Shown here in pieces: positions 39,408 to 62,725 of a DNA stretch of 64,000 bases (position 1 is the stretch's first letter; each line of letters begins with the position of its first letter). The notes beneath the pieces are model-generated. The model searched no databases. It was not told where the DNA came from and was given only the letters and a program-made list of their open reading frames with translations. Position numbers and translations under genes: made by a program. The stretch is from Niabella sp. (GTDB lineage: Bacteria; Bacteroidota; Bacteroidia; Chitinophagales; Chitinophagaceae): assembly GCA_027493055.1 (NCBI GenBank), contig JAPUDO010000075.1:1-64000 (forward strand), in the 5' to 3' direction.

Positions 39408-39601
39408 GATATTTAATCATCGGCTTTGTTTATAACACCAATCATCAATGAAGCTGCATACATTAAAAATACGGTTTCGATTTGAAAATATACCATCATT
39501 ATGCCCAAAGGAAAAAATAAAACTCAAAAATACTGTACAGTCTTTTATGGATTTGTACCAAAATTTATTAACCCTGGGGTTTATTTGTGAACTACGATAA
39601 T

Positions 39602-42080: not shown

Positions 42081-42222
42081 TATGCTTATTCTTTTAAATA
42101 TCATTTCACCCGGTGTGCATAACATTTGAAATAAGGTAGTATTTATTTTCATACACTACTGCAAAAAGCCTTCTATTCGGGTCCTCATGAATCCGAAAAC
42201 TGTTATGTACCGTCTATTATTA

Positions 42223-43746
42223 TTAATCTTTATACCTGAAAGTGGATACTTCCGCCAGCCCGGGCTGCTTTTCGCTGTCATGACCGGATTTGGGCACCAG
42301 CCTGAAATACCGGAACTGCTTACGTTGCGGCAGATCAATATACAGATTCCGAAGATCAAAATTATTAAGCGTAAATGTGCCGAGATTCTCCCAGGTATTG
42401 TTGTCATTGCTGGTCAATATCTGGAGCTCTTTTATTTTGCTGTTCTCAGATTTCTGGTTAATAATAAAACCATTCACCCTTGATACTGCCCCCATGTCAA
42501 CTGTTACATAGTGATTCGGATAGTCTGATGATGCGGCAGCCGCCCAAAATGTAGAAGTGTTGCCATCTATAATACGCTTACTGGCATTAGCCGTTACTTC
42601 TGAGCTAAATCCTGCAATATTCCAGTTTGTTTTAGGATGGATATACCGTACTGTTTCGCCGGAAGGCCGGTTTTGCGGAATATCTATATTTGTTGGCGTA
42701 CCGAAATTGGGGGTACCATCAGTGTTCCATGTAAAGCGCTGGATACGCGGGTTGCGCCCTGCATTGCCATCGTTGGCAACGCTGCGTGCATGGTAAATGA
42801 TCCAGTCTTCTTTGCCATCGGGCGATTTGAAAAAGCCGTTATGCCCGGGGCCATACGCTTTGCTGGCCGCCAGCATGGAAAAAACAGGCTGAGGATTTTT
42901 TGTCCAGTCGCTAGGGTTCATAGGATCTCCGTTATTTTTCAACGTGAGCAGCCCGAGGCAATACCCGTCAGACCAGTAGCCACTGCCGGAGTACACTACA
43001 AACACGCGACCATCAGGATTGATCAACACCTGTGGCCCTTCGTTGATGGGATTGCCTTTTTTTTCCCAGTCATAGTTAGGCGTAGCAATCATTACCTTTT
43101 CGCCGGTAATCGTCCAGGGATTGCTCATTTTAGCAATATAAATATTTTGTGGCGGCGCACCAGCATTTCCCCCGGACCATAACATATACAACTGGCCTTT
43201 ATAATCCAACACTGTACCATCTATAGCCCACAGGTTGGTAGGGTCAGAAATTTTCCCCCGCAGTGCCCAGCTCCCCTGTACAGGATTGGGCGAGGAGTTT
43301 TCCAGCACATACATGCGGTGGTTGGCATTTGTACCGTCATCGGCGGCAAAATAAAAGTACCATTTACCGTTAATTTCGTGAAGTTCAGGGGCCCATACAT
43401 TTTTTGAATAGGATTGATTGGCAGGCGGAGTCCACACATCGGTACGGCGTCCCGAAGCAAGCTCTGATAAATTTTTTGTTTCGATGATCACCAACTTGCT
43501 GCCCTGTGTAAAGGTATAATAGTAAGTGCCGTTTTTCTGCACTACCCAGGGATCGGGCCCGCCCGGCATAACCGGATTCGTGAACTTTTCGTCTTTCGTG
43601 AATTTGGTTAAATCATCCTCTCCCACAGGTGGATCAGGGGTAGGCTTTACAGGATCCGGCTGTTTTATCCCAGGATCTGATTTGCCGCATGATGTCCATA
43701 ACAATCCACTACAGAGAAAACATACAATAAGTATTAATCGTTTCAT
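42223..43746 (-). CDS. GH43-family lipoprotein with F5/8-type C-terminal domain
   Basis: The 507-residue protein has a lipoprotein signal ending at Cys20 (LLWTSC) and a proline-rich linker, then a five-bladed GH43 domain. Its catalytic residues can be placed at PDPW (Asp65), AIDG and NEGPQV (acidic general acid). From about 365 a discoidin-like domain (TVDMGAVSRVNGFIINQ, NNTWENLG) may bind sugars. GH43 enzymes are mostly arabinofuranosidases, xylosidases or galactanases. The gene is first behind promoter A. Confidence 0.88.
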   Translation of the reverse strand: MKRLILIVCFLCSGLLWTSCGKSDPGIKQPDPVKPTPDPPVGEDDLTKFTKDEKFTNPVMPGGPDPWVVQKNGTYYYTFTQGSKLVIIETKNLSELASGRRTDVWTPPANQSYSKNVWAPELHEINGKWYFYFAADDGTNANHRMYVLENSSPNPVQGSWALRGKISDPTNLWAIDGTVLDYKGQLYMLWSGGNAGAPPQNIYIAKMSNPWTITGEKVMIATPNYDWEKKGNPINEGPQVLINPDGRVFVVYSGSGYWSDGYCLGLLTLKNNGDPMNPSDWTKNPQPVFSMLAASKAYGPGHNGFFKSPDGKEDWIIYHARSVANDGNAGRNPRIQRFTWNTDGTPNFGTPTNIDIPQNRPSGETVRYIHPKTNWNIAGFSSEVTANASKRIIDGNTSTFWAAAASSDYPNHYVTVDMGAVSRVNGFIINQKSENSKIKELQILTSNDNNTWENLGTFTLNNFDLRNLYIDLPQRKQFRYFRLVPKSGHDSEKQPGLAEVSTFRYKD

Positions 43747-43913
43747 TCGTATATTTTTTCGTTTTTCTATAAATCCAGAATCGTAATCTTGAAAATATTA
43801 TTCCGCAGGAGCACAACCGCTAAAAGCCTGTAAAAAGGGAAGATTAAATTTCATGGACAAACAGTATCTGACCTCTAAAGCCAAACTATCCTAACGCGGC
43901 TTATCCCGTACAA

Positions 43914-43970
43914 CGAAGTAAGCAAATGCACCTGAAATATTTTGTTCAAGCTTTTGTCAAATCGTTTCAA
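43914..43970 (-). promoter_or_regulatory. PUL promoter A with operator-like direct repeat
   Basis: Read on the plus strand, TTGTTCAA (43942-43949) and TCGTTTCAA (43962-43970) start 20 bp apart. On the minus strand they sit upstream of a -7-like TACTTCG (43914-43920) with exactly 21 bp between. The gene at 43746 starts 168 bp downstream of the -7 box. The same layout occurs at 52326 and 57007. With 43846-43866 it forms a 125-bp block matching 52258-52382. The rest of the 432-bp gap holds a hairpin at 44072. Confidence 0.7.
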
Positions 43971-44071
43971 ACTCTAAAGAGTTGTTAGAACAGGGGTACG
44001 CTATACACCGCTCCTTGTGAAGCAGTACAAAATAATTTTTACATTTATCAGCCTTTTTATATTTTTAGAAT

Positions 44072-44105
44072 GATCCTGCCCCAAATTACTATTCAGGGCA
44101 GGATC
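44072..44105 (-). terminator. Hairpin after the Ig-like lipoprotein gene
   Basis: A perfect 10-bp stem (GATCCTGCCC with GGGCAGGATC) and a 14-nt loop lie about 75 bp after the stop at 44179 on the minus strand. A T-run is lacking, so it may end the susCD transcript or stabilise its 3 prime end. Confidence 0.55.
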
Positions 44106-44178
44106 GTTTCACTTTCTCTTAACCATATGCCCGCCGGCTGATAGTTAGATTATGTTTTAAAATAAAACTTACAGGCTT

Positions 44179-45336
44179 TTAGGGTGTAAGGCCAAGGTAT
44201 AATTCCTGCATTTGCACGGTATTACCCTGTGATGTGTACGACGATTGGTAGAAACATTGTGCTTTCTGCGCATAGAATTTCAGGTATCGGTACTTAGATT
44301 TCGGTAGAGGTATATTAACAGATTCCTGCAGGGATGCTGTTGCTGCATCAGGAATGACCACATTTGTTGCAATCACCTCGAAATTCGTACCATCGTTGCT
44401 ACCCTGTATTTCGTCAAAAGCATACCATCTTATAAAGGCTTGCGTTATATCTCTGTGGCGTATCCTGAAATAATTTACCTCCTGAGAAGTCTTCATATCT
44501 ACGATAAAGTAAATAGCTGCACCAGAAGGCACTGTTACCTTAGTAGTTGTACCGGAGGTTTTACCTGGCCTTACGAGGCAGAAATTGGTAGCCAGGTCAC
44601 CGTCAATTGCAGCGGCTAACGAGTTCCCTTCGGGATTACCAGTTGCTATCATGAGCTCATGAGAGGCTGTCATTGTCCAGCCGGTTCTTGGGTAATCGCC
44701 GCTAAAAGCTACCACATTCACCGTTACCGCGGCCTTAATTGATGCATTGTGCTTCGATGCTACGGTAACTATAGCAGTGCCTTTTGTTACACCGCTTAGC
44801 ATTCCTTCCCCGGTTACCGTTACCACTGCAGGACTGGAAGAAGTATAAGTCAACCCGTCGTTTGCATCAAGCGGCGTAAGCTTTACCTCGCTAAACAGGT
44901 TATAGGTGTCTCCTAATTTCAGGTCCATTTCAGACTTGAGCAACTGGACTCCCGTAGCCGGTATTAAAAACTTATCAACCACTGTTACGGGGAACTCAAC
45001 GCTATGCCCCCCTGCACCTACCGATATGGTAATGGTGGCGGTACCTTCGCTAACGGCGGTAACAATGCCTAACCCACTTACGGTAGCTACGGCAGGGTTA
45101 GATGAAGAATAGCTTTCTGCCCTGTCTGTGGCATTTTCGGGGAATACGTTTACTTGCCAGCTTGCATCAAGCGTAGTGCCTGTAAGCAAGGTATTGTCTC
45201 CTTTAAGTGCATCTTTTAAAGTAACACTTTCTACTGCTACTTCCGGCGCTGTTACCATGTTTTTGTTGCAACCAGCCAACAACAGGCCGCACAGTAAAAA
45301 AACAGCCGCGAAGAAGGATATTTTACTTTTTTTCAT
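44179..45336 (-). CDS. Surface lipoprotein with two Ig-like (BIG2) domains and an F5/8-like C-terminus
   Basis: The 385-residue protein has a lipoprotein signal ending at Cys23 (LLLAGC). Two Ig-like group 2 repeats follow: about 32-120 (SSSNPAVATVSGLGIVTAVS) and about 128-212 (TSSSPAVVTVTGEGMLSGVT). The C-terminal part (about 220-385) resembles discoidin domains and may bind sugar. Position after susD suggests a surface glycan-binding protein. It is probably the last gene of the GH105-susC-susD transcript, since a hairpin follows. Confidence 0.8.
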   Translation of the reverse strand: MKKSKISFFAAVFLLCGLLLAGCNKNMVTAPEVAVESVTLKDALKGDNTLLTGTTLDASWQVNVFPENATDRAESYSSSNPAVATVSGLGIVTAVSEGTATITISVGAGGHSVEFPVTVVDKFLIPATGVQLLKSEMDLKLGDTYNLFSEVKLTPLDANDGLTYTSSSPAVVTVTGEGMLSGVTKGTAIVTVASKHNASIKAAVTVNVVAFSGDYPRTGWTMTASHELMIATGNPEGNSLAAAIDGDLATNFCLVRPGKTSGTTTKVTVPSGAAIYFIVDMKTSQEVNYFRIRHRDITQAFIRWYAFDEIQGSNDGTNFEVIATNVVIPDAATASLQESVNIPLPKSKYRYLKFYAQKAQCFYQSSYTSQGNTVQMQELYLGLTP

Positions 45337-45433
45337 GTGTATGTTTTTTAATAATTGAAACTGAGATCAAGCCATGAGGCACAGAGGAACGAAGCCCCTG
45401 CAAAGTTTTTCAAAACTCCTGGCCCCCCCGGCT

Positions 45434-47278
45434 CTACCTGTCCCAACCAGGGTTTTGCACCAACATGCCTTTGGTACGCTGCATTTCTGTCAGTGGTATA
45501 GGGTACAGATAATTTTTACGGCCGAAATAACGGGTCTGGAACCTCCTGCGAGTGTGGAATGCGGCTTTATTCCCATCGGGGTTCATGCCGGTAAATTCGC
45601 CGCCCTGGCCACCCTGGCCCACGGGGTTTTCGGCTATCATCCACCTGCGCACATCAAAGTAGCGCTGTCCTTCGGTGGCCAGCTCAATGCGGCTTTCGCG
45701 GCGTATGGCTTCGCGCTGAAGGCTCTGACTGCCTGCTATGGCTGGGTTCAGGTCTTCCAGCTTGGGCAACCCGGCGCGCTCACGCACCATGTTGGTATAG
45801 CGTAGCACATCGGGGTTGCCGGGTTCTACTTCATTCAGCATTTCGGCATATAGCAGGTAAAACTCTGCCAGCCTGAAAATAATAGACGGCCGGTACCTCC
45901 TGGTTACAGCTCCTGTAGCGGAACGCCCATACACAGTGCGGTTCATCCTTTTGTATAAAAGATAGCCGGTAATAGGCGCGCCATCCGGTACGGTTTTATC
46001 GGCATTGCCACCGAGATAAAACTGCGTTTCCGCATTGCTGATATGCCATTTTTTACCGGAGAAAGTGATAGTGTTATAAAAACGTGGTTCGCGCCCGATA
46101 TACATCCTGGATACTTCTATCCCGTCATACGTGCCAAAGCCTGTTTCACTGTATGAAGGTGAGGCGGAAAGAAAAGTCGTATTCTTTATCGGAAATCCAT
46201 CCGCCATATAAAAGTCATCTACCAGTTCCTGCACTACGTGTATGCCGCCCAGGCCCGATGGCTCGTTCCTGGGAGTTACAAACTGGTCAAAAGCACCGTT
46301 GGTGGCAGTACCCCAGGCATCTTTTGAAGTGGCCCAAATGATCTCTTTATTGTAATCCTGAAACACTCCGTACACAGACAACGCAGGGTTGAAAGTGCCT
46401 GTATTCTTAAAAAGCTCGTAACGGCCCTGCTCTGCGTAATCTAAAAACTCTCTTAACGCTGTTACGGCTTTTTGCACTTTGCTGTTGTCTCGGTCGGGGA
46501 ACAGACGCTTGCCATCGCTGTTCGCAAGCAACAAAGCTTCTGTAAACCCGCCGTTAAAGAGCGGGCTGGCCGCATATACCCACAGCTTCGCGCGCAATGC
46601 CATGGCCGCGCCTTTGGTAGGCACTGCTGCATAGTCCAACTGGGTGTGGTAAGGCTCCTGCTCCATGCCCATCATGGCTCCCCGCAGTTCCGAATCAATA
46701 AAGTTAATCACTTCATCCAGGGAATTACGAGGCACATCGAGTTCGTCCTGCAGGGTTTTGGATTGGGTTATGATGGGTACGGGGCCGTACTGTTCCATCA
46801 GGTAGTAATAATACGCCGCCCTCATGAAGCGAATATTGGCTTTGTAGCGTTCTACTTCAGCCTCAGTAAGCACGGCCGCACTTACACCCGTAGCAACGAT
46901 GGGTTTCACTTTTTCCAGGAAGATATTGGCCTGCCTTATGCTTTCGTACAGCGTGCCCCACCGGTGGTTGTTGGAGTTGGAAGAGTTCCAGTTACCATAT
47001 TTACCTGTATTATTTGCCAACCTGTGGTATAGCTCATCGGTATAGCCTGCCCAGGCATTAGCCATGGAAGAGCCGGCTACCCATATTGCAGAATAATCGG
47101 GCACATTGTTATATACCTGCCCGTACCATTTTCTTGTGCGGTCTACGTTATCAAACACCTGTTCAACATCGGTGATACCGCCAGCCAGCTCATCGGACAC
47201 ATCCAGAAACTTACTGCAGGATGTAAACCAACCGAGCGAAAGGCTTATTAACCCTATTTTTATAATATTAGTTTTCAT
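45434..47278 (-). CDS. SusD/RagB-family glycan-binding lipoprotein
   Basis: The 614-residue protein has a lipoprotein signal ending near Cys21 (GWFTSC), then the SusD N-terminal TPR-like part (FDNVDRTRKWYGQVYNN, RQANIFLEKVKP, RFMRAAYYYYLMEQYGPVPI) and the C-terminal RagB part with RPSIIFRLAEFYLLYAEMLNEV and RRESRIELATEGQRYFDVRRW. It captures glycan at the surface and forms a lid on SusC. The gene is 121 bp downstream of the interrupted susC and starts with the same TATACGA-ATG context. Confidence 0.95.
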   Translation of the reverse strand: MKTNIIKIGLISLSLGWFTSCSKFLDVSDELAGGITDVEQVFDNVDRTRKWYGQVYNNVPDYSAIWVAGSSMANAWAGYTDELYHRLANNTGKYGNWNSSNSNNHRWGTLYESIRQANIFLEKVKPIVATGVSAAVLTEAEVERYKANIRFMRAAYYYYLMEQYGPVPIITQSKTLQDELDVPRNSLDEVINFIDSELRGAMMGMEQEPYHTQLDYAAVPTKGAAMALRAKLWVYAASPLFNGGFTEALLLANSDGKRLFPDRDNSKVQKAVTALREFLDYAEQGRYELFKNTGTFNPALSVYGVFQDYNKEIIWATSKDAWGTATNGAFDQFVTPRNEPSGLGGIHVVQELVDDFYMADGFPIKNTTFLSASPSYSETGFGTYDGIEVSRMYIGREPRFYNTITFSGKKWHISNAETQFYLGGNADKTVPDGAPITGYLLYKRMNRTVYGRSATGAVTRRYRPSIIFRLAEFYLLYAEMLNEVEPGNPDVLRYTNMVRERAGLPKLEDLNPAIAGSQSLQREAIRRESRIELATEGQRYFDVRRWMIAENPVGQGGQGGEFTGMNPDGNKAAFHTRRRFQTRYFGRKNYLYPIPLTEMQRTKGMLVQNPGWDR

Positions 47279-47399
47279 TCGTATATTTTTTATGTTTTCA
47301 ATTGTCGAATGGAACTTATCAGGTATAAAATTTTCATTTCCTGTGTGATAAAAACGAAAATTTTATAATGAACGTTTCATGTGTATTCTTCTTTAAATT

Positions 47400-49454
47400 T
47401 TATAAGTTCACTTCAAGGCCTAATGTAAATGTGCGCGACATAGGGTAGCTTACGCCCTTGTTACGATCACCCATTTCAGGGTCCCATATTTTTATTTTGT
47501 CCCATACATAAAGGTTGTACCCCATAATGTAGGCTCTTGCACCACTGATACCCAATCTTTGAATAGTGTTTTTGGGAATCGTATATCCAAATTCCAGGTT
47601 TTTGAAACGCAGGAAGCTGGCATCGCGCATCCACCAGGTACTGGCTTCTTTGCTTATATTGTTGCCGTATCCCTCATGTAGTCTGGTCATCATCACATTC
47701 TGGCTGGGGTTGTCTGCCGTCCAGCGGTTTAAAAACTCCTTGCGATAGTTCCCTTTTTCTATACCCCATGTAAAAGGCCATACGGTATAAGCTTCTGTGC
47801 CTGAGCCCTCTGTGCCTATTACAAAAGAGGTGTTGGCTGCACCCTGGAAGAACACGCTTATATAAAATCCTTTATAATCCACGTTCAGGCCAAAGCCGTA
47901 GTTGATTTCAGGGTTTTCAGGGTGGCCTACGCCTCTTTTACGGTCGTTATTATCTATAATACCATCATTGTTCAGGTCGGCAGAGTTAAAATCGCCGGGA
48001 CCCAAGGGAGCGTTACCGGGCCTGGTAGGCACGGGCAGCCCGGGTTTTAACTGGTAGCGGTAAGTGCCGTTGGGGTTTTGCGTTCTTATAAAATCATCTT
48101 CGGTATAAAGCCTTTCGGCGATGTACACGGTTTGCTCCCCTACCCTTGTGCCGGTAACCTGCATCCAGGGATAATTTTGAGGCAGCTCATCATACTCAAG
48201 CACTTTGTTACGGGCAAAGGTGAACGTACCCCTGGTTCCTATTGTGAACTCGCCTATTTTATGATTGCTTTTCAGACTGGCATCCACACCGTGGTTATGC
48301 ACAATGCCATAGTTTTGCCAGGGATTTGCATGGAAACCTGCCGAACCAGGAATGGTACGGCGCTGAATAAGGATACCTGTACGCTCGTTATTAAAATAAT
48401 CCACCGTTAACTCAATCCTGTTCCTGAAAAAACCTAAGTCAAGCCCTACGTTGCGTTTCTGCTCTATTTCCCAACCAATATAGTTGTTGAGAAAACGCTG
48501 GTCGAATATGCCGGCACCCAGGCCATTGGTACCGCCATTGGTGCTGATACCCTGATTGAAGTTATAGGCATTGTCACCACTTGTAACAAAGGTGGGGCGG
48601 TAAAGAAAACGGGAGCCGCCTGTATTATCGTTACCGGTACGGCCCATAGACAACCTGATTTTAGCGCTATACAGCACATCTTTCAATGCATCGGGATAGA
48701 AAGGCTCATTGGATACAAAATAGCTGATCCCCACGGCAGGGAAAAAACCAAAGCGGTTGCCTTTGGCAAAGGTTTCGCTACCGGTATAACCAAAGTTACC
48801 TTCTATAAAATACCGGTTAGCAAACGAGTAAGTAGCACGGCCTACCAGGCCCTGTTTGCGGTAAGGCAGCACATCGTTCCCGCGCTGGTTTTCCTTCTGC
48901 ATATAAAGCAGCATACCTCCCACATTGTGCTGCTCAAAAGTACGTGCGTAATTGATAGCGCCCTCCATGTATATATTGCGGTAGTTGTCCCTCCCATCAT
49001 CGTCATATACAGGATCTACCAACTGGGGATTGCCTGATACTGATTGACTGAACTGAAGGTTGCCCTCTGCATCGCGGCCGGTAGCATAGTATAAGCTTGG
49101 TCCGTAATTGCGCAGGGTTCTATTATTACCTTCATAGTCAAGGCTTAGGTTGGCCCTGGCGGTCAGCCCCTTGGTAACTATTTTCAGATCCTGGTTAATG
49201 CCTACGTTGGATTGTATGCGTGTGCTAAACTCCTTGCGGTAGCCCTGGTTGTAGAGCATATTGAAAGGATTGCGGTTGTTGCCATCGCCCACTATCCTAT
49301 AAGTAGCTAAAGTGCCATCGCTGTATATAGCAGGGAACAGGTGTGGTGGCGTAAAGAGCATGAACTTGAAAATATCATCGGGCGATCGGTTGGCTGTAAG
49401 CCGGTTAACATACTGCCCGGCGAGGTCTATGTTTAACTGGGTGGTATTGCTCAC
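47400..49454 (-). CDS. SusC/RagA TonB-dependent transporter, C-terminal barrel part after an in-frame stop
   Basis: This open frame of 684 residues holds most of the beta-barrel of a SusC-type transporter and ends with the typical aromatic-ending strand (MSRTFTLGLEVNL). It continues the frame of the N-terminal part at 49482-50627: only nine codons and one TAA separate the GTG at 49454 from the end of that part. Independent initiation at GTG 49454 would make a barrel without a signal peptide or plug and is unlikely to work alone. No other stop or frame error is seen, so this is a recent mutation, a sequence error or a readthrough case. Confidence 0.85.
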   Translation of the reverse strand: MSNTTQLNIDLAGQYVNRLTANRSPDDIFKFMLFTPPHLFPAIYSDGTLATYRIVGDGNNRNPFNMLYNQGYRKEFSTRIQSNVGINQDLKIVTKGLTARANLSLDYEGNNRTLRNYGPSLYYATGRDAEGNLQFSQSVSGNPQLVDPVYDDDGRDNYRNIYMEGAINYARTFEQHNVGGMLLYMQKENQRGNDVLPYRKQGLVGRATYSFANRYFIEGNFGYTGSETFAKGNRFGFFPAVGISYFVSNEPFYPDALKDVLYSAKIRLSMGRTGNDNTGGSRFLYRPTFVTSGDNAYNFNQGISTNGGTNGLGAGIFDQRFLNNYIGWEIEQKRNVGLDLGFFRNRIELTVDYFNNERTGILIQRRTIPGSAGFHANPWQNYGIVHNHGVDASLKSNHKIGEFTIGTRGTFTFARNKVLEYDELPQNYPWMQVTGTRVGEQTVYIAERLYTEDDFIRTQNPNGTYRYQLKPGLPVPTRPGNAPLGPGDFNSADLNNDGIIDNNDRKRGVGHPENPEINYGFGLNVDYKGFYISVFFQGAANTSFVIGTEGSGTEAYTVWPFTWGIEKGNYRKEFLNRWTADNPSQNVMMTRLHEGYGNNISKEASTWWMRDASFLRFKNLEFGYTIPKNTIQRLGISGARAYIMGYNLYVWDKIKIWDPEMGDRNKGVSYPMSRTFTLGLEVNL

Positions 49455-49481
49455 TTTCAGGTCTATATTGCTGCTCAGTTT

Positions 49482-50627
49482 TTAGCTCTGATAGTCAAAA
49501 TCGCTGTTATACTTACCCATCTCGTTCTTTTTAAAAACGCCGTCCTGATTAAAGTACGCCATGGACACAAAATATTTGGCGTTCTCCGCGCCACCCCTGA
49601 AGTTTACGGTGTAGCGCTGGTTTTTAACATTCTTTGCCAGCAACTCATTCATCCAGTTGGTGTTGGGGTACAGGTCATTATCTACTCTGTTGCGGTATTT
49701 TTCAATCTGCTCCTGGGTCATATATGGATCCAGGCCATCATTAAAGCGAGCTTCGTTTGCCAACTCTATGTAGTCCCAGGAGTCTACAAACTCAGGCAGC
49801 CGTTGCGGCTGTGCAGTAGAAAGCTCCGCACGGAAAGAGATGCGCGGCTTGGATATAGTACCACGCTTGGTGGTAACGAGTATAACGCCATTAGCGCCTT
49901 CTGCACCGTACACCGCTGTGGCTGCCGCATCTTTCAGCAATGAAAAAGTTTCAATTTCATCGGCTTCTATCTCACCTATCTTACGCGGAATACCATCTAC
50001 CAGTACGAGCGGCTGAGAGCCTCCGGCGAAAGTGCTGATACCCCGTATCCAGAACTCGGCAGCGTCCCTGCCCGGCTCAGCGTTTCGCTGGATGGCTATA
50101 AGCCCCGAAAGCTGCCCGGCCAGGTTGCCGGTAATGTTGCCGGTGGGAGCCATCAGCTCTTTTGCCGTAATACTACTTACGGAGCTAACCATGGCGGCTT
50201 TCTTCTGCTTACCATAGCCTACTACTACTATCTGGTCGGACATCTGGATATCGCGGTCCAGCACCATATTCAGTACTTCGCTACCGTTTACTACCGTATC
50301 GCGCGACACATATCCTGTGTAACTGAACGTAAGCACATCTGTGGGAAGCGCATCAATGACATAAAGCCCGTCATTGTTGGCAGTGGTACCCATAGTGGTG
50401 TTTTGAATACCTATGGAAGCACCCACCAAAGGCTCACCGGCAGTGTTGGTTACCTTCCCTGTAATCCGTTTTTTGCTTTGTGAAGCTGACCGCTGTACCA
50501 CAATGGTATCATTTTGCGCATAAGCCATTCCCACACCTAATCCCTGGAACAGCATTGTAAGCATTACAACATACAATACCCGGGCATCTTTAAAGAGCCT
50601 TCTGCCTTGCTTAGATTTTCTTTTCAT
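49482..50627 (-). CDS. SusC/RagA TonB-dependent transporter, N-terminal plug part
   Basis: The 381-residue part has an atypically long N-terminus, signal peptide (about 15-38), the carboxypeptidase-like regulatory domain (ITGKVTNTAGEPLVGASIGIQ, about 54-74 onwards) and the TonB plug: VVVGYGKQKKAAMVSSVSSI near 143-162, LVLVDGIPRKIGEIEADEIE and YGAEGANGVILVTTKRG. SusC imports oligosaccharides with TonB energy together with SusD. The part stops at TAA (49482-49484) inside the first barrel strands. It follows GH105 (50713) by 85 bp, so it probably shares promoter B. Confidence 0.85.
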   Translation of the reverse strand: MKRKSKQGRRLFKDARVLYVVMLTMLFQGLGVGMAYAQNDTIVVQRSASQSKKRITGKVTNTAGEPLVGASIGIQNTTMGTTANNDGLYVIDALPTDVLTFSYTGYVSRDTVVNGSEVLNMVLDRDIQMSDQIVVVGYGKQKKAAMVSSVSSITAKELMAPTGNITGNLAGQLSGLIAIQRNAEPGRDAAEFWIRGISTFAGGSQPLVLVDGIPRKIGEIEADEIETFSLLKDAAATAVYGAEGANGVILVTTKRGTISKPRISFRAELSTAQPQRLPEFVDSWDYIELANEARFNDGLDPYMTQEQIEKYRNRVDNDLYPNTNWMNELLAKNVKNQRYTVNFRGGAENAKYFVSMAYFNQDGVFKKNEMGKYNSDFDYQS

Positions 50628-50712
50628 TCGTATACATTTTATTTTTTAGTTTGGTTAAATGGAACTTCTTATATCATAAAATATGTTTCAAAAAATTATT
50701 TAACAACGTTGC

Positions 50713-51933
50713 TTAATTTGCCTGGGCAAAACCAGATAAAGCATAAGCGCACCACATAAGCGCAGCCTGGCCATGATAATCCCCGGTCCATTTCCTGCGG
50801 TTCAAATAGTATTGGGTACTGTTTCCTGCGCCGGTACCCTCGCACACGTTACGGATATCGTAGTTAGTCTCCAGGAACGTCTGAAGCGCAAGCCATGCTT
50901 TACGCGCTACAGCGCCATATTTTTCTTTATTGAGCCAGCCGTTCTTTACACCCGTGATCATAGCATAGGTGAACATGGCAGAACCTGATGTTTCTCTCCA
51001 TGACGACATATTATCAATAAGCTGCCCCCACATACCATCGGAAGCCTGGTACATTGTCAAAGTGGACATCATATCCTGGTACCCTTTCATTATCCGCTCC
51101 CGGTAGGCATCGTATTGCGGCTTTTTAGGTAATATACGCAGCACTTCTGTCATTCCTACTGCCATCCAGCCATCGCCCCGCGCCCAAAAAAACGGTGCCT
51201 CAGGAGCATGGTAAAACAAACCGTTGACGCGTTGCAACCGGTTAAGATAAAGCACCATTTCCCGTGCTGTACGCTCGATGTACTTTTCATCTCCGGTGGC
51301 CAGATATGCCTGGGCCTGGAGTGCGGTTATCATAAACATATCGTCTATCCACAGGCGGGTTTGCCAGGAATAGCCATCATTGTGCCAGTCTTTTTGCGAC
51401 TGCGTGGCTTTGGAAGGAAGCGTCCATTGCCCATCGGCATATTTCATACCCAGATCTTTGTACCTGCTTTCTTTTTTCCTGCTGTATATTTCAAGCGGAA
51501 CGGCACCAAAAACATAATAATCCACTTTGTTATCCGCCGTTGTGTTCAGGTTGGGCTGCAAATGCTTTTCTGTTGTGAACAATGGTTCAAACCTGTTAAC
51601 CAGCTGATTATATAACTCATCATTTTTGATACTTTTGGCAAACCAAAATGCTCCCAGCCAGGCACATACATCGGGATAAGTAATATGATCCGCTGTATAC
51701 TGGGAATAAATATTGCCCCAATAGGAATGCTTTGTCTGCAAAAAACGTTCGGTTAATTTTATACCAACTTCTTCAGGCCGGGAACCTGCCGGAAAATTTT
51801 CCAGATCATACGCAGGGATGTCCGGTTTCGGATCCGGCTTTGGTTCTGTTTTAGAATCAACATTCCCCTTGCTACAGCTTATTAATAAAACCCCAGCTAG
51901 AAAAAATCCAGTAATCAAAACTGACACTTTCAT
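50713..51933 (-). CDS. GH88/GH105 unsaturated uronyl hydrolase, lipoprotein
   Basis: The 406-residue protein has a lipoprotein signal ending at Cys20 (VLLISC), then the same family motifs as its paralogue at 40974: WIDDMFM, FFWARGDGWMAVG and WRETSGSAMFTYAM. The lipid anchor suggests action at the outer membrane, while the paralogue looks soluble. It removes unsaturated uronic acid ends. It is the first gene behind promoter B, with a long leader, and probably heads the susCD transcript. Confidence 0.88.
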   Translation of the reverse strand: MKVSVLITGFFLAGVLLISCSKGNVDSKTEPKPDPKPDIPAYDLENFPAGSRPEEVGIKLTERFLQTKHSYWGNIYSQYTADHITYPDVCAWLGAFWFAKSIKNDELYNQLVNRFEPLFTTEKHLQPNLNTTADNKVDYYVFGAVPLEIYSRKKESRYKDLGMKYADGQWTLPSKATQSQKDWHNDGYSWQTRLWIDDMFMITALQAQAYLATGDEKYIERTAREMVLYLNRLQRVNGLFYHAPEAPFFWARGDGWMAVGMTEVLRILPKKPQYDAYRERIMKGYQDMMSTLTMYQASDGMWGQLIDNMSSWRETSGSAMFTYAMITGVKNGWLNKEKYGAVARKAWLALQTFLETNYDIRNVCEGTGAGNSTQYYLNRRKWTGDYHGQAALMWCAYALSGFAQAN

Positions 51934-52325
51934 CGCTATCTATTTTTGTTTTTTATGACCAGATGGCATATCCACTGCTTTACTGATGTTTTTCATTTCG
52001 CAGCACAGGCTAAAAGTTTTTACTACCTAATTGAACCAAACCGGTAAATACCTTGATAAGCATGACACAGCCAATATGTTGTTGGCCAGTTTATGAACTG
52101 TTACAGTATGGGTAGCAGAAAATTTACTATTGCTTCCAGGGTGTGCTAACCTTATTGTATAACCATCGGATTATAGTTTTCTAATCTTTGACTTTGCTTA
52201 ATAATGGCAGTTTTTGAAACGCAAACAATCAAATACATCCTTATAAACTCATTATAAAATTTCACAGACAAACAAGTACACTACATTCAAAAACCAAAAT
52301 CGTTTTAGTCAGATTTACTGCAACA

Positions 52326-52382
52326 CAAAGTAAACAAATAGGGCTAAGAAGTTTTGTTCAACGTTTTGTCGAATCGTTCCAA
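52326..52382 (-). promoter_or_regulatory. PUL promoter B with operator-like direct repeat
   Basis: TTGTTCAA (52354-52361) and TCGTTCCAA (52374-52382) start 20 bp apart, and a -7-like TACTTTG (52326-52332, minus strand) lies exactly 21 bp from the first. The ATG at 51933 is 393 bp downstream of the -7 box, an unusually long leader in which I see no gene. The element lies close to the GH115 stop at 52419. The 485-bp gap otherwise holds only AT-rich sequence. Confidence 0.7.
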
Positions 52383-52418
52383 GTTGTGCATTTTTCAGTA
52401 ATACATATTTCCTGCACA

Positions 52419-55340
52419 CTATCTGATTATGCTTGAAGGAGGCCCGTTGTAGGATTTCTTCATCCCTCCCATATCTATAACTATTTTCTGAATGACCATA
52501 CCAGGATCTCCGGCAATTACTTTCAGCCTGTGAAACCCAGGCTTATCAATATACAAAACCGATTTATTGATTGCTGCGTTCCGTATTACGTTATCAGCCC
52601 ACGCCTGAGTATACTCGGGATGAGAGGAGGAAGGATAGCTAACTGCACCATCATCTATACAAACGCCATACCTTGTTTGCGAAGTGGAAAACTCATGAAA
52701 AGCCAGATTACGATCTGTTGACAAAGGAAAGACGGGCAATACATAAGTATATACGTTTACCATACCCCGGCCAACCGTATAGAAGTCATATTCAACATAC
52801 GAGGCATCGCTGCGCCGCGGATCGTGCACAGGGCCGGTGGGATCGCCCATCAGCACAGAGCGTCCTTCAATACCCAGTTCATCAATCACAGCTATTTTAA
52901 CTTCATTACTTTCTTTTTTCCTGCTGAAGGCCGCTCCCGGTATGGAAACATATCCATTCATTTCTATAGCAATATTTTTTAAAGAATCAGCATGAGGCAA
53001 CGAGGAGTTGAATACGGGAACGTAAACCAGTTGTTCATAATCTTTCCATTTGACTTTTATAATTCCCTGGCAATCTATCCCAGGACTTAATTTACTCCAA
53101 TCAACATCAACAGTAATACGCTCCTGTTTTTCCAATAAGCCCCCTGCTTTACTAAGGCTAAGCCATTCCTTATCATAAGAGATAGTGAAAGGTATAGCCT
53201 CCTGTCCTGTATTATACAGCTCAAAATAAACTGGCTGTTTACTACCCTTACTAACAGCAGGCAGTACATACTGCAACCCGGTTGTAAGGCCGTTTGAGCC
53301 AGACGCTTTAATTTTAATTGATCCCTGTTGCGGAACAGTGAGGGAATCCAAAACCGGCTTTTCAAAATAAGATGCTGTTACGCCCTGGCGCAATGACATC
53401 ACCCGGTTCCATTTTCCGTTTAGAAGCGTGTTATATTGCTGTGTAATATAAACAAGGCTGTCCTGATACAACAGCGATTTTTGCCGGATATCATTGGTGG
53501 CGGCACGCTTTTGGTGAAAGTATTCCCGGCTAAGCTGCGCATATAACCATTTTTTGTTCATGTATTCTGCGCCTTTTGAAGGGTAATACACCAATTGACA
53601 GAAAGCTGGTTTCAATTCCTCCGGCAGTTGCATATAGAGCCTTTCTGCCATCTGCCCCAGATCACCGTACTGGTTCAGCCTGCGTTGTGCTTCCTCATAA
53701 TTATCAAAAGAAAACTCTGTATCCGTAGGCCGTTCGCGCGGGTATTTATTGGCATTCCATTCAAATCCCCAGCCCATATGTTCGGGCTTGCGTATAAAGG
53801 CCAGCCGGGTATAAAGCTGTGTAATTTTCACCAGCTGGTCATAATACCGGGCACCAAATTGTTCCGACAACCACTTCGCAGGAAAAAGTGGTGTGTTATC
53901 AAAATTAAATGAGTCAAGCGAATAGGCCATCTGTAAGAACAGGCTTACCGGCTGCTCACATGATTTTATATCTCCGGCATTCAGTAACCATAGCCTGTTT
54001 GCACCGGTTTTATAAGCTTTGCTCAATTCTTCAAACATAAGATTGGGCGTAGAAGAGCTTAGCCACAAATAGTCGTGCGGAATACCCAGGTAAGAGGCAT
54101 GATAATAAACGCCTGAGCCGCCAGACCTTTTTTGCTCGATCTCATTACTTAGCCGCTTCATATAGCCGTAATTATCATCGGGCCAAACGATCGTTACATC
54201 TTCGGGTATTTTAAGTCCTGCATTATACAGCTCCAGCACCTCCTTATATGGTATAAATATCTGTGGGATTTCATCTAATGGTTTGCTGATATATTTCTTT
54301 AAGATCTCTCTCTGATCTTTTATTGCCTGATCTACCAGGTTTAACCGGTCGGCCAGGCTGTAATCACCCGACATTTGTTTATCATGCAATCCCCGCAGTG
54401 CAAGCGTATACACATTTTCATATTCCGAGTTTTCACGGACCCTTTTATCAAGCGCTGCCACAATGTTTTGCCTGTTGGTCATATAATTCCAGTCGCCCAT
54501 CTTTTTTTTATCCCACTCGCTGGCATTATTGAATAATAAAGGTTCGGGATGTGTTGACCCCATTACAATGCCAAAGGAATCTGCCAGCATTTTATTTTCA
54601 GGATATTTATTAAAAGCGCCGGAAGCTTCGTGCATAGCCGGGCACAGGTAGTTGGCTTTTAACCTGAGTAGCAGCTCAAAAACCTTAGCATAGGTCTTAG
54701 GGCCAATATCTTTTAACTGCGGGTCAAAAGTATTTTTTGCCCAGGGCAGCAACCCCCAATCCTCATCATTGATAAAGATACCCCGGAACTTAACACTGGG
54801 TGAAGGTGAAATGAAATTTTGGACCCGAAGGCTGATCGTTTTATTTTTCTTTACCGGAACATCTGCCCACCAATACCAGGGAGAAACGCCCAGCGCTTCG
54901 GAAATAGAAAGCAGTCCAAAGGAAACCGCCCGCCGGTCGCTGCCTGCAACAACAAGCGCGCGCTTCACTTGAGGAAACGGGCGATCTATTATAAAAACAC
55001 CATAACGCTCCCACTGGCCGTGAAGCGAATCCACTTTAATCTTTCCGGCATTTACGAGTTCCCTGATCCATTTGCTGCCTAAGGTTCCGGCAATTACCAT
55101 CGTTTCCGCATTTACAGGACTGGTATAAATACCAGGTAGTGAGCCCGTTACCTGCTGTACATCTTTTGCCAGCAGCTGCACAGTAGTTTTTACAGATACA
55201 GCATCTGCTGCATCGTACAATATTTTTATGCCGGGAAAGTAAACGCCCGCTGCCGTTCTTTTATTTTCAACCGCGAACTGGGCTGACGCGTAAAGCCCGC
55301 ATACTAAAAACAAAGAAAGTACTATCGTTTTTGTCTTCAT
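52419..55340 (-). CDS. GH115 alpha-glucuronidase
   Basis: From the ATG at 55340 the protein has 973 residues with a signal peptide (TIVLSLFLVCGLYASAQ). The N-terminal part has YGVFIIDRPFP and AGSDRRAVSFGLLSISE, then the family-specific FRGIFINDEDWGLLPWAKNTF and ANYLCPAMHEASGAFN, then HPEPLL and WPDDNYGYM. A beta-rich C-terminal part (GH115_C-like) follows from about 780. GH115 removes glucuronic acid or 4-O-methyl-glucuronic acid from xylan, or from arabinogalactan in some relatives. It lies 69 bp behind the GH43 gene and shares promoter C with it. Confidence 0.9.
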   Translation of the reverse strand: MKTKTIVLSLFLVCGLYASAQFAVENKRTAAGVYFPGIKILYDAADAVSVKTTVQLLAKDVQQVTGSLPGIYTSPVNAETMVIAGTLGSKWIRELVNAGKIKVDSLHGQWERYGVFIIDRPFPQVKRALVVAGSDRRAVSFGLLSISEALGVSPWYWWADVPVKKNKTISLRVQNFISPSPSVKFRGIFINDEDWGLLPWAKNTFDPQLKDIGPKTYAKVFELLLRLKANYLCPAMHEASGAFNKYPENKMLADSFGIVMGSTHPEPLLFNNASEWDKKKMGDWNYMTNRQNIVAALDKRVRENSEYENVYTLALRGLHDKQMSGDYSLADRLNLVDQAIKDQREILKKYISKPLDEIPQIFIPYKEVLELYNAGLKIPEDVTIVWPDDNYGYMKRLSNEIEQKRSGGSGVYYHASYLGIPHDYLWLSSSTPNLMFEELSKAYKTGANRLWLLNAGDIKSCEQPVSLFLQMAYSLDSFNFDNTPLFPAKWLSEQFGARYYDQLVKITQLYTRLAFIRKPEHMGWGFEWNANKYPRERPTDTEFSFDNYEEAQRRLNQYGDLGQMAERLYMQLPEELKPAFCQLVYYPSKGAEYMNKKWLYAQLSREYFHQKRAATNDIRQKSLLYQDSLVYITQQYNTLLNGKWNRVMSLRQGVTASYFEKPVLDSLTVPQQGSIKIKASGSNGLTTGLQYVLPAVSKGSKQPVYFELYNTGQEAIPFTISYDKEWLSLSKAGGLLEKQERITVDVDWSKLSPGIDCQGIIKVKWKDYEQLVYVPVFNSSLPHADSLKNIAIEMNGYVSIPGAAFSRKKESNEVKIAVIDELGIEGRSVLMGDPTGPVHDPRRSDASYVEYDFYTVGRGMVNVYTYVLPVFPLSTDRNLAFHEFSTSQTRYGVCIDDGAVSYPSSSHPEYTQAWADNVIRNAAINKSVLYIDKPGFHRLKVIAGDPGMVIQKIVIDMGGMKKSYNGPPSSIIR

Positions 55341-55409
55341 GCTACACATTTAAGCCTATTAAATCATTAAAGAATTTCGTTAACAGTGGTTTGCTACTTT
55401 AGATGTTGA

Positions 55410-56891
55410 TTATTGACTATCCAAAACAAATTTTTTAAAAAGCGCAGCATGCCCTTCGGTTCCTTTTGAAACCAATCCTACACGTACGGCCCTGTCCCAC
55501 GGGGGCAGGTAAGAAATATCAGCTATTTCTTCATTCAATATCTTGAACCGTATTCCATCGGTACTATACATAAAAGTGGCCTGTGTATTGTTCTCCACTT
55601 TTACCTTCAGCACTAACTGCGAGGGCATTTTGATTGTCTTTTGAGCAATCATCTCTGCTTTATTCTTTTTCAATTGGATTAAGCGGATATGGTTATTATA
55701 AACTGTTGCATATACCATATTTTTATCATCCCCTATCAGGGCAATCCCCGCCTCGGACGCAGATTTTTTCAGTACTGTAACTTCGGCATTGTAATTAGCG
55801 GATAAAACAGACCGGCCAATGTATGCTCCGCAATCCGCCGGCAGCGCATTGAGCTTTAAGGTGTTTTTTGAAACTGTATATTGTACAGTCTGGAATATGC
55901 TCCAATGCCAGCTGTCAGCCAGCGTAGCGCCTGAAAAATCGTCTACAATTTTTCCTGCACTTACTAACCGGCCATAGTTATTACCATTTAAGAACCGAAT
56001 CCATCCATCCGGCGTAAACTCAAACTCATTTAACAACCCCTGCCGGCCTCCGTAAGCCCCGCTGCCTGTGCTATATGCGTGATAAAGAAAATAAAATTTA
56101 CCATCCTTTTCAACAGGTGTTCCATGACCAGGGCACTTCCAGTCTGCATTGCCTGTCAATACAGGGTTGCCCGGATATTTTTCCCATGGTCCAAGCAGAC
56201 TCTTCGATCTTGCGATGCCTGTTCCGTAGGTGCATGTTTTACCGCAACAGGCAGCCGCTGCATAAAATGTATAGAAATAGTCGTTGCGCCTAATTATAGC
56301 AACTCCTTCTACCAGGCCTTTCTCCCAGGGAGCATCCGCACGAAAAAGCTCTTTCTTTTCACTCACCAGTGCAGTCCTGTCCTCTTTCATTTCCGCTGCC
56401 CAGATTGGAGTGGGCTTACCAACGCTGTTACCATCTTCTTTCCATATCATATATAATTTCCCGTTCTCATCGCGGACGGAAAAAGGATCTATTGACCCAT
56501 ATTCCTGGCATATAAGCGGCCCCAGATCTTTATACGGTCCCTCAGGCTTGTCTGCCACAGCCGCCGCTATACATAAGCTTCCGTTTTTTTTGTGAGCATT
56601 GTAATACAGATATACTTTACCGTTTTCATAGGTGATTTCGGGCGCCCACATATAGTAATCGGCCCATGCAGGTATTTCTGTAAACACATGCCCTGCCGTT
56701 TTCCAGCTTACAAGATCGTTTGAACGATATAGAGTGAACACAGGAAACCAGTTTGAGGTTGTACCTACAGCCCAGTACTCATTGCCAATTTTAACTACAG
56801 AGGGATCAGGATGATCGCCCGGCAAAACCAATTGCTGAGCATCCGCTTTAAAAAGAAAAGAACACAGCAATAACGATAAAAACAAACGCAT
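55410..56891 (-). CDS. GH43-family glycosidase, secreted
   Basis: The 493-residue protein has a signal peptide (FLSLLLCSFLFKADAQ). Its GH43 domain shows LPGDHPDPSVV with catalytic Asp29, YGSIDPF with the second Asp near 138, and VEGVAI with the general acid near 196. The last 170 residues look like a beta-sandwich accessory domain. Beta-xylosidase or arabinofuranosidase activity is expected. It is first behind promoter C and followed by GH115. Confidence 0.9.
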   Translation of the reverse strand: MRLFLSLLLCSFLFKADAQQLVLPGDHPDPSVVKIGNEYWAVGTTSNWFPVFTLYRSNDLVSWKTAGHVFTEIPAWADYYMWAPEITYENGKVYLYYNAHKKNGSLCIAAAVADKPEGPYKDLGPLICQEYGSIDPFSVRDENGKLYMIWKEDGNSVGKPTPIWAAEMKEDRTALVSEKKELFRADAPWEKGLVEGVAIIRRNDYFYTFYAAAACCGKTCTYGTGIARSKSLLGPWEKYPGNPVLTGNADWKCPGHGTPVEKDGKFYFLYHAYSTGSGAYGGRQGLLNEFEFTPDGWIRFLNGNNYGRLVSAGKIVDDFSGATLADSWHWSIFQTVQYTVSKNTLKLNALPADCGAYIGRSVLSANYNAEVTVLKKSASEAGIALIGDDKNMVYATVYNNHIRLIQLKKNKAEMIAQKTIKMPSQLVLKVKVENNTQATFMYSTDGIRFKILNEEIADISYLPPWDRAVRVGLVSKGTEGHAALFKKFVLDSQ

Positions 56892-57006
56892 TATATCAAT
56901 TTATTTTGGGTAACAAATGTGTTTCAGACAGCAATCTTCTCTGATCGTTAAATCAAATTGTACTGATCTTCAGTTCTGTCAGATAAAACAGGCATCGTAA
57001 ACTTGT

Positions 57007-57063
57007 CAAAATAAATAAACCTGCGAGAAATGTATTGTTCAATGTTTTGACGAAACGTATCAA
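57007..57063 (-). promoter_or_regulatory. PUL promoter C with operator-like direct repeat
   Basis: TTGTTCAA (57035-57042) and ACGTATCAA (57055-57063) start 20 bp apart; the -7-like TATTTTG (57007-57013, minus strand) is exactly 21 bp from the first. The element lies in the 258-bp gap between the divergent GH43 and sensor kinase genes, 87 bp from the kinase start, so it could also affect that gene. Confidence 0.65.
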
Positions 57064-57149
57064 ATATGTGGTATGATATATAATAATTGTTATAAATCTA
57101 TTTTAAGACCATAATATTATAATACCATTATTTATATTTGAAATTAGTA

Positions 57150-60100
57150 ATGATAAAGTCTTTCTGTTATATTGTCTTGCTGAACTTTTTATTGCAGATC
57201 ATCGTTTTCCCCTGTTACAGCCAATACTATTTTAAGCATTACCAGGTGGATGACGGATTAGTGCATAATGCTGTAACCGCTGTAATACAGGATAGCAAAG
57301 GTTTTATATGGATAGGAACCCGTGGTGGTTTAAACCGTTTTGACGGGTACTCTTTTAAAACTTATAAAAACGGCAGTGATAAATTCGGCAGTTTGGGGAA
57401 TGACGTTATTAACAGTATAGCTGAGGATAAGAACAGGATGATATGGATAGGTACCGGCAAAGGCCTCTTTAAATATGATCCGTATAAAGAAACCCTCACC
57501 GAACTGAAAGGTGTTCCAAAAGAATATGCCAGTAATATTGTTATAGACAATGACAACAACTTATGGTTCCTTATTCAGTTTTCTCTATACAAATACACAC
57601 AGAAAAAAAACAGGATCGAACATTTAGAAGTACCCGCTTCCTGTATAGCCCTGGATTCAAATATGAATTTATGGATAGGCGATAATGATGGTAATATTAG
57701 TATTTACGACCCAAAAAATAAGGCAGGCACTAAAATCAGGATTACTGATAAAAGTTTGCCGACAAATGCACGGTCTATCAGCAAAATATATCCTATCGGC
57801 GATAACGAGCTATTGATAGGCTGCTTTAAGCAGGGATTGAAAAGCTACCATATTAAAACAGGCATTATTAAATCCCTTCCACTGGGTACCGATAAGAGCA
57901 AAGATATATTTGTCCGTGACATTGCAACAGGCAGTGACGGGCAATACTGGGTTGCTACTGAATCGGGGATTTACATTTACAACATAGCTACCCATACAAG
58001 TATCAACCTGAAAAAACAAACAGGTGATCCTTACGCTGTGGCAGACAATGCCGTTTATGCCATATGCAGGGATACGCAGGGCGGGATGTGGATCGGCACT
58101 TTTTTTGGTGGTCTGAATTATTATTCTAAGGACAATGCCCGGTTTGAGAAGTATTACCCGCTGCCGGGCCTAAACTCTATTTCAGGAAATGCAGTGAGAG
58201 AAATTTGTTCAGATAACAATGGGCATTTATGGATCGGCACTGAAGATGCAGGTATCAGTAAACTGGATTTAAAAACAGGAATATTTGCAAAATATACTGC
58301 TACCGGCGAAAAAGGGAGCCTCTCCTATCCTAATATCCATGGGCTCATGGCATGGGGAAACGAGTTATTTATTGGTCCTTTTTTGCAGGGTATGGAAATA
58401 ATGGATATGCGTACCGGTTTAATTACTGACCGGTTTAAGCTTATTCGGGATAAAAACGGACCGGTAAGTGATTTTGTGATTTCAATCTACCGGACAAGAA
58501 GCAATAAAATCCTGGTAGGCTGCGCCTATCGCAACGCAGGTTTATTTGAGTATGATGCACAGCTCAAAACATTCAGACGTATTCCTCAAATACCATTCAA
58601 TACTTATATCTATGATATTTTTGAAGACTCGGAAGGCAATATCTGGACAGGTAGTGTAAAGGAAGGCGCATTCTTTTATAATCCGCAAACGGGCCTGCAT
58701 GGAAATATACAGTTTGGCGATACTACAAAAGGCCGGACCATTAACGAATTTCCTGTCTATAATATCTTTGAAGACAGCAACCGCGCTTTATGGTTTACTA
58801 CAACCGGTTGTGGACTTATAAGACTAAGCCCCGACCGGAAAACCATCAAAAGATACACAACAACAAACGGGCTGCCAAGCAATGTATTATACAGTATCCT
58901 GGAAGATAATTCAAAACATTTGTGGATCAGCTCGCTTAAAGGTCTTATTAGTTTTGACCTGCGTACAGAACAGATAAGAGTGTACACACAAGCCAACGGA
59001 TTAATAACCGATCAATTCAACTATAACTCAGCCTATAAGCATACAGATGGCAAAATGTACTTTGGCTCTGTTAAGGGGATGATCGCTTTTGACCCGGCTT
59101 TGTTTAATCAAAAAGAACCCAGCCCACCCACCTATATCACAGGGTTCCAAATTAATAATGCAGAAACAACACCGGGAGAACATAAGAGTCCCCTTTCCAG
59201 GTCTATTTTGTATACAGATACTGTTATACTGGAATATGATCAAAACAATTTCAGCATTGAATTTGCCGCTCTGAACTTTTCTTCTCCTGAAGCAATCCGT
59301 TACAAATACATGATGAAAGGGATTGACCAAAACTGGACCTACCTCAACACCAATCGCAAAGCCTATTTTACCGACCTTACCTACGGCACTTATGAATTTA
59401 TCGTTCAGGCCGAAAGCAATACAGGAAGCTGGACCGGCAAAAAACAGCGGCTGCTCATTAAAATTCTTCCGCCATTCTGGAAAAGTAACATGGCCTTTAT
59501 ATTTTACCTGCTGCTTTTAGGTACGGGTATTTTTGCTGCCGACCGCTTATACCGGCAATACCTGGAGCGAAAAAACCTGCGAAAACTACAGTTGTTCGAA
59601 CACGAAAAGGAAAAAGAAATTTACCAGGCAAAGATTGAGTTCTTTACCAATATCACTCACGAAATACAAACCCCTCTTACACTCATCGCCGGTCCTATCG
59701 AATGGCTGATCAAAAAATTAGGTAAAGAACCTGACATTAGAAAAAGCCTGACAATAGCCGAAAAAAATACCAAAAGACTGGTAGAATTGACCGGGCAATT
59801 ACTTGACTTCAGAAAGACCGAAGCCAATCAGTTCAGCCTGAACTTTGTGAAAACAGATATTATTACCCTGGTTGCAGATCTTGTAACAGGATTCAAACAA
59901 CAGGCCAGCAGCAATAACATTGACTTAAACCTGGAATTACCCGAAAACCACTTCATGGCGTTTGTTGACAGAGAGGCCTTTATTAAAATATGCACTAATA
60001 TGGTCTCGAACGCTATTAAATATGCCGCTGGCAGGGTAACAATAACGATCAACAGCATAAAAGATGCTGACAAACACTTTACTATCCTTTTTAAAAATGA

Positions 60101-62568: not shown

Positions 62569-62725
62569 AAACTTTAAAATTTTAAATTTATCCTCACCCG
62601 TATGTAAAGCAACGACTGATAACCGCTTTGCTTTACTTCATCTATCCTTTTGATACATCTACCGTAATAGTCAGCGCTTGGCCAGATACCTGCTACAATG
62701 GCAATTGATTAAAATGCTTATCTTG

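Follow-up and report, generated by a model that had tools for sequence, protein, structure and literature searches.

Sugar loci with susC and susD genes are controlled in Bacteroides thetaiotaomicron by hybrid (HTCS) regulators, for 16 of 36 of which the available text of Ravcheev et al. (2013; PMC3878776) gives predicted direct-repeat operators, on average 21 bp between sites. Response-regulator fragments of two HTCSs, BT4124 and BT4663, bind the promoters of susCD homologs, and the partners of their S/CHIP loop are a D and a K of the DNA-binding domain, according to excerpts of Gao et al. (2024; PMC11253607). An XylR-type regulator of Vibrio is treated in PMC12125979, likewise represented here by an excerpt. 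A literature search returned no title appearing to describe the operator analysed below, which, with subscription journals mostly outside the search, is weak evidence of novelty. Searches on class II AraC sites and on Niabella sugar loci turned up nothing directly useful. To our knowledge, few sugar-locus regulators of soil Bacteroidota seem to have a described operator. A further point of reference is AraC at araI1-araI2, where a strong upstream half-site and a weaker downstream half-site at -35 lie about two helical turns apart and activation is of class II.

The window is the whole stretch of DNA analysed here, 64,000 nt from Niabella sp., a soil bacterium of the Chitinophagaceae. It holds a sugar locus for breaking down plant sugars and, next to it, two regulatory genes:

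57138-60338, plus strand: sensor kinase with Reg_prop, Y_Y_Y, HisKA and HATPase_c domains, its sensor of the periplasmic type
60340-61104, plus strand: response regulator, receiver plus AraC-type helix-turn-helix (HTH), a separate gene; predicted operator binder

The pair resembles the B. thetaiotaomicron HTCSs (PMC3878776, in part) in its AraC-type output, its Reg_prop/Y_Y_Y-type sensor and its predicted control of a susC/susD locus. Like BT4124 and BT4663 as excerpted (PMC11253607), the regulator combines a receiver with an AraC-type domain and carries the S/CHIP loop, here YCHIP in the receiver; its best solved relative, 12aw_A, is a hybrid two-component system protein (E 9.6e-48). Unlike the HTCSs in the available text of PMC3878776, kinase and regulator are separate genes, and unlike BT4124 and BT4663 in that of PMC11253607, where the regulator is tethered to a kinase dimer, the regulator is free. 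The kinase stop codon falls one base before the regulator ATG, giving two genes and not one polypeptide, and in its own genome and in nine close orthologs the regulator has a reading frame to itself, of 255-263 aa; the system is therefore not filed as an HTCS. Separate kinase and response-regulator genes are the classical two-component arrangement. The pair is best read as a relative of the Bacteroides hybrid regulators that is split into two genes.

Two observations concern the arrangement of these genes elsewhere. Regulators of 50-53 % identity in the relatives G018, G025 and G032 lie within frames of 1334-1348 aa, so that fused and split forms are close relatives. In Chitinophaga alhagiae (L084:9980-13980) the regulator gene (plus strand) and the kinase gene (minus strand) are convergent, not tandem.

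A common element at the sugar-locus promoters

Three promoters of the sugar locus share a 29-bp element, the putative operator, each copy followed by a -7 box:

43942-43970, minus strand: putative operator 1, upstream of GH43-F5/8 and GH105 genes (and a gene of the endonuclease/exonuclease/phosphatase family); profile E 2.0e-13
43914-43921, minus strand: -7 box 1, TTACTTCG, 20 bp from operator 1
52354-52382, minus strand: putative operator 2, upstream of GH105, susC-like, susD-like and Big_2/F5_F8 genes; profile E 2.5e-13
52326-52333, minus strand: -7 box 2, TTACTTTG, beside operator 2
57035-57063, minus strand: putative operator 3, upstream of GH43 and GH115 genes, with the divergent kinase gene 75 bp away; profile E 5.6e-10
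57007-57014, minus strand: -7 box 3, TTATTTTG, beside operator 3

The genes predicted to answer to these sites are:

55410-56891, minus strand: GH43, site 3
52419-55349, minus strand: GH115, site 3
50713-51933, minus strand: GH105/GH88-family enzyme, site 2
47400-50627, minus strand: susC-like gene, split into two parts by one in-frame TAA, site 2; the second part is without a Pfam match
45434-47278, minus strand: susD-like gene, site 2
44179-45336, minus strand: Big_2/F5_F8 protein, site 2
42223-43746, minus strand: GH43 with F5/8 domain, site 1
40974-42152, minus strand: GH105/GH88-family enzyme, site 1

The in-frame TAA of the susC-like gene, at 49482-49484, divides it into separate frames at 49482-50627 and 47400-49454, and is either a nonsense mutation or a sequencing error.

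An earlier note on this DNA had proposed that three promoters of the sugar locus share an operator, and the sequence bears this out at the places that it named: the plus-strand pattern TTGTTCAANNTTTTGWCRAAWCGTWYCAA matches at 43942-43970, 52354-52382 and 57035-57063. On the promoter strand the element is TTGGAACGATTCGACAAAANNTTGAACAA (columns 0-28), followed by a variable 20 bp and by TTnYTTYG at columns 49-56. The half-site starts are separated by 20 bp, with GAAC present in both half-sites, and a TAYTTYG-type heptamer lies 21 bp from TTGTTCAA (20 bp when the octamer TTnYTTYG is taken as the box); both spacings hold at all three sites, as claimed. Among the three copies, 22/29 operator columns, 6/20 spacer columns and 6/8 columns of the -7 octamer are identical, against 9/100 upstream and 11/100 downstream in the flanks. 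Similarity is thus confined to the element, and the three sites are not one duplicated stretch.

The same note had described the element as a two-turn direct repeat. Two half-sites 20 bp apart are present; the repeat itself is only partly symmetric, and by column permutation the operator appears asymmetric. The similarity at a 20-bp shift was reached by 0.050 of permutations and that at a 21-bp shift by 0.110, which leaves a clean 20/21-bp direct repeat marginal; for 19 sites of the SRPT type (defined below) the 20-bp-shift value was 0.210. The likeness to the HTCS operators is that these also consist of two sites with a spacer, there on average 21 bp apart (PMC3878776, in part). Compared with them, as given in the available text of PMC3878776, the element appears asymmetric: its half-sites are 20 bp apart and their symmetry as a repeat is weak. 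Separately, an internal similarity spaced by 12 bp, between columns 9-18 and 21-30 (TTCGACAAAA and TTGAACAAAA), exceeds the 20-bp one, with 0/300 permutations as high; it may reflect A-rich composition.

At up to three mismatches, the 29-bp pattern occurs in the 5.75-Mb genome at the three window sites and at one 3-mismatch place on contig C78 only, and the reversed control pattern gave 0 matches in the same genome at the same limit. A slightly different pattern matched in 12 of 59 genomes (the own genome and 58 relatives), its control in none. A sequence-only profile of 63 columns was built from 23 distinct sites from other genomes; the four own-genome sites were left out of this training set, and L077 (a chance-like match without a -7 box) and L069 (identical in sequence to L059) were left out of both the training set and a 27-site column table. 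In addition to the three window sites with the E values listed above, the profile found C78:3779 at 1.0e-11. Weaker matches were at 39506-39564 of the window (E 0.0014) and, partial, at C78:7176 (E 0.0017), and 11 further own-genome matches (E 0.0126 to 7.5) were taken as noise. A chance origin of the element is excluded by the pattern search, the reversed control and the profile scan. Many equally good matches at random places in the genome, which the note had named as grounds for giving up its reading, were looked for, and only four strong sites were found, so that the reading was not refuted on these grounds.

Because the training sites were found with a window-derived pattern, the 29-bp core was not obtained blind. 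The -7 box was, because it formed no part of the search pattern. In 25 of 28 distinct sites (L077 included) picked by the operator alone, the octamer T[TA]N[CT]TT[TC][GA] lies at exactly the 20-bp gap, compared with 0.002-0.003 occurrences per position in the flanks. The second position of the box is T, not A, in 27/27 aligned sites, and TTnYTTYG is close to the Bacteroidota sigma-A box TAnnTTTG. The aligned sites of the 27-site column table contain no TTTG near -33, a position set here by the rule for flavobacterial promoters, in which the TAnnTTTG box spans -12 to -5 (PMC9723704, excerpt).

A weaker site and a gene group at the edge of the window bear on the extent of the regulon:

39533-39561, minus strand: weak putative operator 4, about 500 bp upstream of a GFO/IDH/MocA oxidoreductase gene; profile E 0.0014
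39505-39512, minus strand: -7-like box of site 4, at a gap equal to that of the other sites
37857-39062, minus strand: GFO/IDH/MocA oxidoreductase, probable target of weak site 4
61438-63811, minus strand: GH130 and SGNH genes, no operator in front on contig C75

Site 4 scores 27.6 bits, the best reversed control within the window -5.1, and an enolase-superfamily gene accompanies the oxidoreductase gene behind it. The oxidoreductase gene, which had been counted among those lacking a copy, therefore probably has one. The GH130 and SGNH genes had been counted there as well, and no site of their own was found by the window scan or the own-genome profile scan; yet they appear to lie downstream of two sites on contig C78. 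On C78, GH105 and FAD oxidoreductase genes lie behind the strong site, and genes for a GDSL enzyme and GH2 behind the partial one. A single GH2 protein appears to be divided between two contig ends, C78 encoding residues 1-814 and C75, the contig of the window, residues 827-893, so that C78 very probably abuts C75 at the right end of the window, the sugar locus continuing on C78. With the contigs so joined, the C78 sites would have SGNH and GH130 downstream of them, all on one strand. Synteny in G010 has GH130 downstream of GH105, FAD oxidoreductase and GH2, and GH130 and SGNH are probably the end of a gene series starting on C78. Genes with a site in front of them in other genomes are those for GH43, GH105/GH88, TIG-protein/susC, TonB receptors and sulfatases.

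Distribution with the regulator and beside the kinase gene

Nine relatives out of the 58 have an ortholog of the regulator, at 85-92 % identity. A site at E<1e-5 occurs in 10/10 genomes with a close ortholog (the own genome included) versus 2/49 without, and, in a 147-genome family sample, in 4/4 genomes with the regulator versus 1/143 without. The Fisher values are 1.1e-9 and 2.7e-7, both of which overstate the evidence as the genomes are related. The regulator and site searches of the 147-genome sample name 24 and 25 genomes, and that both used an identical draw was judged from these names and from equal totals.

The exceptions among the relatives are G004 and G011, which have a site and no regulator above 54 % identity. 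In G004 one site precedes a gene of which 109/420 residues were found; the other is beside an acyltransferase gene, with neither kinase nor regulator found in the 20 kb covered, and G009 has a similar-looking gene at that place with a kinase on the other side. In G011 the site precedes short fragments of GH43-F5/8 and GH105 genes, and an intact, distant GH43-like frame lies further on. These sites are read as relics after loss of the regulator, a putative natural loss of the regulon. In G109, a site with an operator one base shorter precedes an intact GH43 ortholog (493 aa), and the best regulator has 53 % identity; this site may be a relic too, or may answer to another regulator. Operators persisting without a regulator, before truncated or fragmentary target genes, are at L224 and L225 (G004) and L226 (G011).

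In 22 of the 24 loci scored an operator is also present, in one constant orientation, at 15-149 bp upstream of where the kinase gene starts; G010 and L081 were the two scored loci with no operator beside the kinase gene. As a control, 24/891 windows from those loci reach an equal score, a number that may include other real sites. The 24 come from 25 loci given, L084 having been dropped with its kinase gene on the opposite strand from the regulator; by position L084 fits, its operator being at 14055 and its kinase gene, on the opposite strand, beginning at 13980. The count leaves out G022, L085 and L080, the last being the same contig as G010. Genes neighbouring the kinase and operator differ between loci while the operator stays, and the adjacency is kept in two families, the Chitinophagaceae and the Sphingobacteriaceae. 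In 7/22 of these loci (G002, G003, G005, G009, G012, L088 and L091) the best operator is without a -7 box at the proper gap, although in L091 another operator, with a -7 box, is close by. Persistence of the operator beside the kinase gene without a divergent promoter suggests that it may control the kinase and regulator genes themselves.

Helix-turn-helix residues and operator bases

Operator bases differ with residues of both HTH motifs of the regulator; the types named below are labelled by the first. In SRTT loci (Niabella and others) column 3 is G in 31/39 sites and column 4 is G in 1/39. In SRPT loci, whose hosts are Pedobacter, Mucilaginibacter, Desertivirga, Sphingobacterium, Filimonas and one Chitinophaga, column 3 is A in 19/19 sites and column 4 is G in 16/19. 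For a paralog at 62-67 % identity, which has SRAT and an altered second HTH, column 11 is G in 6/6 sites, versus 0/39 for SRTT and 1/19 for SRPT. Both SRTT (L081 and L084) and SRPT (L094) occur within Chitinophaga, and the operator tracks regulator type. The third SRTT residue presumably corresponds to the position of Trp42 in MarA.

These counts refer to sites collected with a profile built from Niabella sites and sorted by locus, so that some regulator-distant sites and those of G004 and G011 count as SRTT with no cognate regulator in sight; the outlying L015-L020, related regulators that also carry SRPT, supply none of the SRPT sites. Two changes on the tree suffice to account for the helix labels, so that the co-variation rests on few events, and the SRPT group is weakly supported (57/83).

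The downstream half-site, GAAYA, is nearly constant in all three groups, and the two half-sites are thus not equivalent. A tentative explanation, which we consider possible but somewhat doubtful, is that the half-sites are read by different rules, the upstream one being specific and setting identity and the downstream one, near-universal and placed over -33, contacting polymerase. A change of the first-HTH residue (T, P, A) would then go with a shift of the upstream half-site from GGAAC-like to GAGAC-like, and the changed second HTH with a shift from TTCGAC to TTGCAC. If true, this would amount to a simple recognition code for sugar-locus regulators. The three helix types and three operator types make half-site choice by AraC-type proteins directly testable.

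Proposed mechanism and alternatives

Taken as a whole, the evidence is best explained if the response regulator at 60340 has the 29-bp element as its operator, an assignment that we regard as likely with good confidence. The earlier note had made the same link, which is now supported by co-occurrence, by kinase-gene adjacency and by co-variation with the DNA-binding domain. On this sequence evidence, the kinase and regulator pair very probably switches the sugar genes on together. On sensing an oligosaccharide, the kinase at 57138 would phosphorylate the regulator, two monomers of which would bind side by side on the operator. The upstream monomer would read columns 0-18, TTGGAACGA through its first HTH motif and TTCGACAAAA through its second, and the downstream monomer TTGAACAA together with weakly conserved bases beyond it. 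With the -7 octamer placed at -12 to -5, the downstream half-site would fall at about -40 to -33 and the upstream one at about -61 to -54. If the -7 box is right, the promoter-proximal half-site would overlap the -33/-35 region, as with AraC-type class II activators. Since no TTTG is found near -33 in the aligned sites, bound regulator would replace the -33 box and do its work. A single signal would thereby turn on GH43 and GH115, GH105 and susCD, GH43 and GH105, the C78 genes and probably the oxidoreductase, and the operator copy beside the kinase gene would add autoregulation. The geometry of a strong upstream and a weaker downstream half-site is like that of AraC at araI1-araI2; unlike in the AraC system, a separate membrane kinase would provide the signal, and the promoter is of the Bacteroidota -7 type. 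Binding, phosphorylation and activation are proposed from the family as described in excerpts of PMC11253607.

The genome has at least 45 matches to the regulator's sequence at E <= 0.001, and G004, G011 and G109 have sites without a close ortholog, so the operator could belong to another HTCS or AraC-type protein, the regulator at 60340 being a mere neighbour. This is unlikely, however, given that site presence follows this very regulator across genomes, that the operator adjoins the kinase gene in 22/24 loci despite differing neighbour genes, and that operator bases shift with its HTH residues. If a sigma factor read the element as an extended part of the promoter, the fixed distance to the -7 box in 25/28 sites would be accounted for; such an element would hardly be limited to four strong sites in a whole genome, and to strong sites in 12/59 genomes, or persist beside the kinase gene without a -7 box in 7/22 loci, which makes it very improbable. 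Descent by duplication would also give three similar promoters, and GH43 and GH105 genes each occur more than once in the locus. That the promoters are copies of one stretch with the element common by descent only is scarcely credible, though, when 22/29 and 6/8 columns are identical in the element as opposed to 9/100 and 11/100 in the flanks and when the element is also present in other genomes, before sulfatase, susC-type and GH105 genes.

A different question is the sign of control. A site over about -40 to -33 could block polymerase too, and the orientation to the kinase gene is opposite to that toward the sugar genes, as might be expected of a repressor or of a system of mixed role. HTCS-type systems are nevertheless described as needed for expression of their loci (PMC3878776 and PMC11253607, both in part), and aligned sites without TTTG near -33 fit an activator-dependent promoter; repression or a mixed role is accordingly quite improbable.

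With the 29-bp element taken as the operator of the regulator at 60340, this is a real regulon of a generally known kind (Ravcheev et al. 2013), in a split variant and with unusually good comparative support. New here are the member itself, its split form, the asymmetry of the operator and a half-site code that can be tested. An explicit operator, a list of targets and a promoter geometry that is fixed are now linked to a single regulator, and as these are defined and adjacency to the kinase gene is kept, the regulon is predictable in relatives. Further operator-like sites, of 27.0 and 27.4 bits and without a -7 box, are present at L046:5271 (G003) and L052:5827 (G012), immediately 3′ of the regulator gene, on the side where an oxidoreductase-like gene lies.
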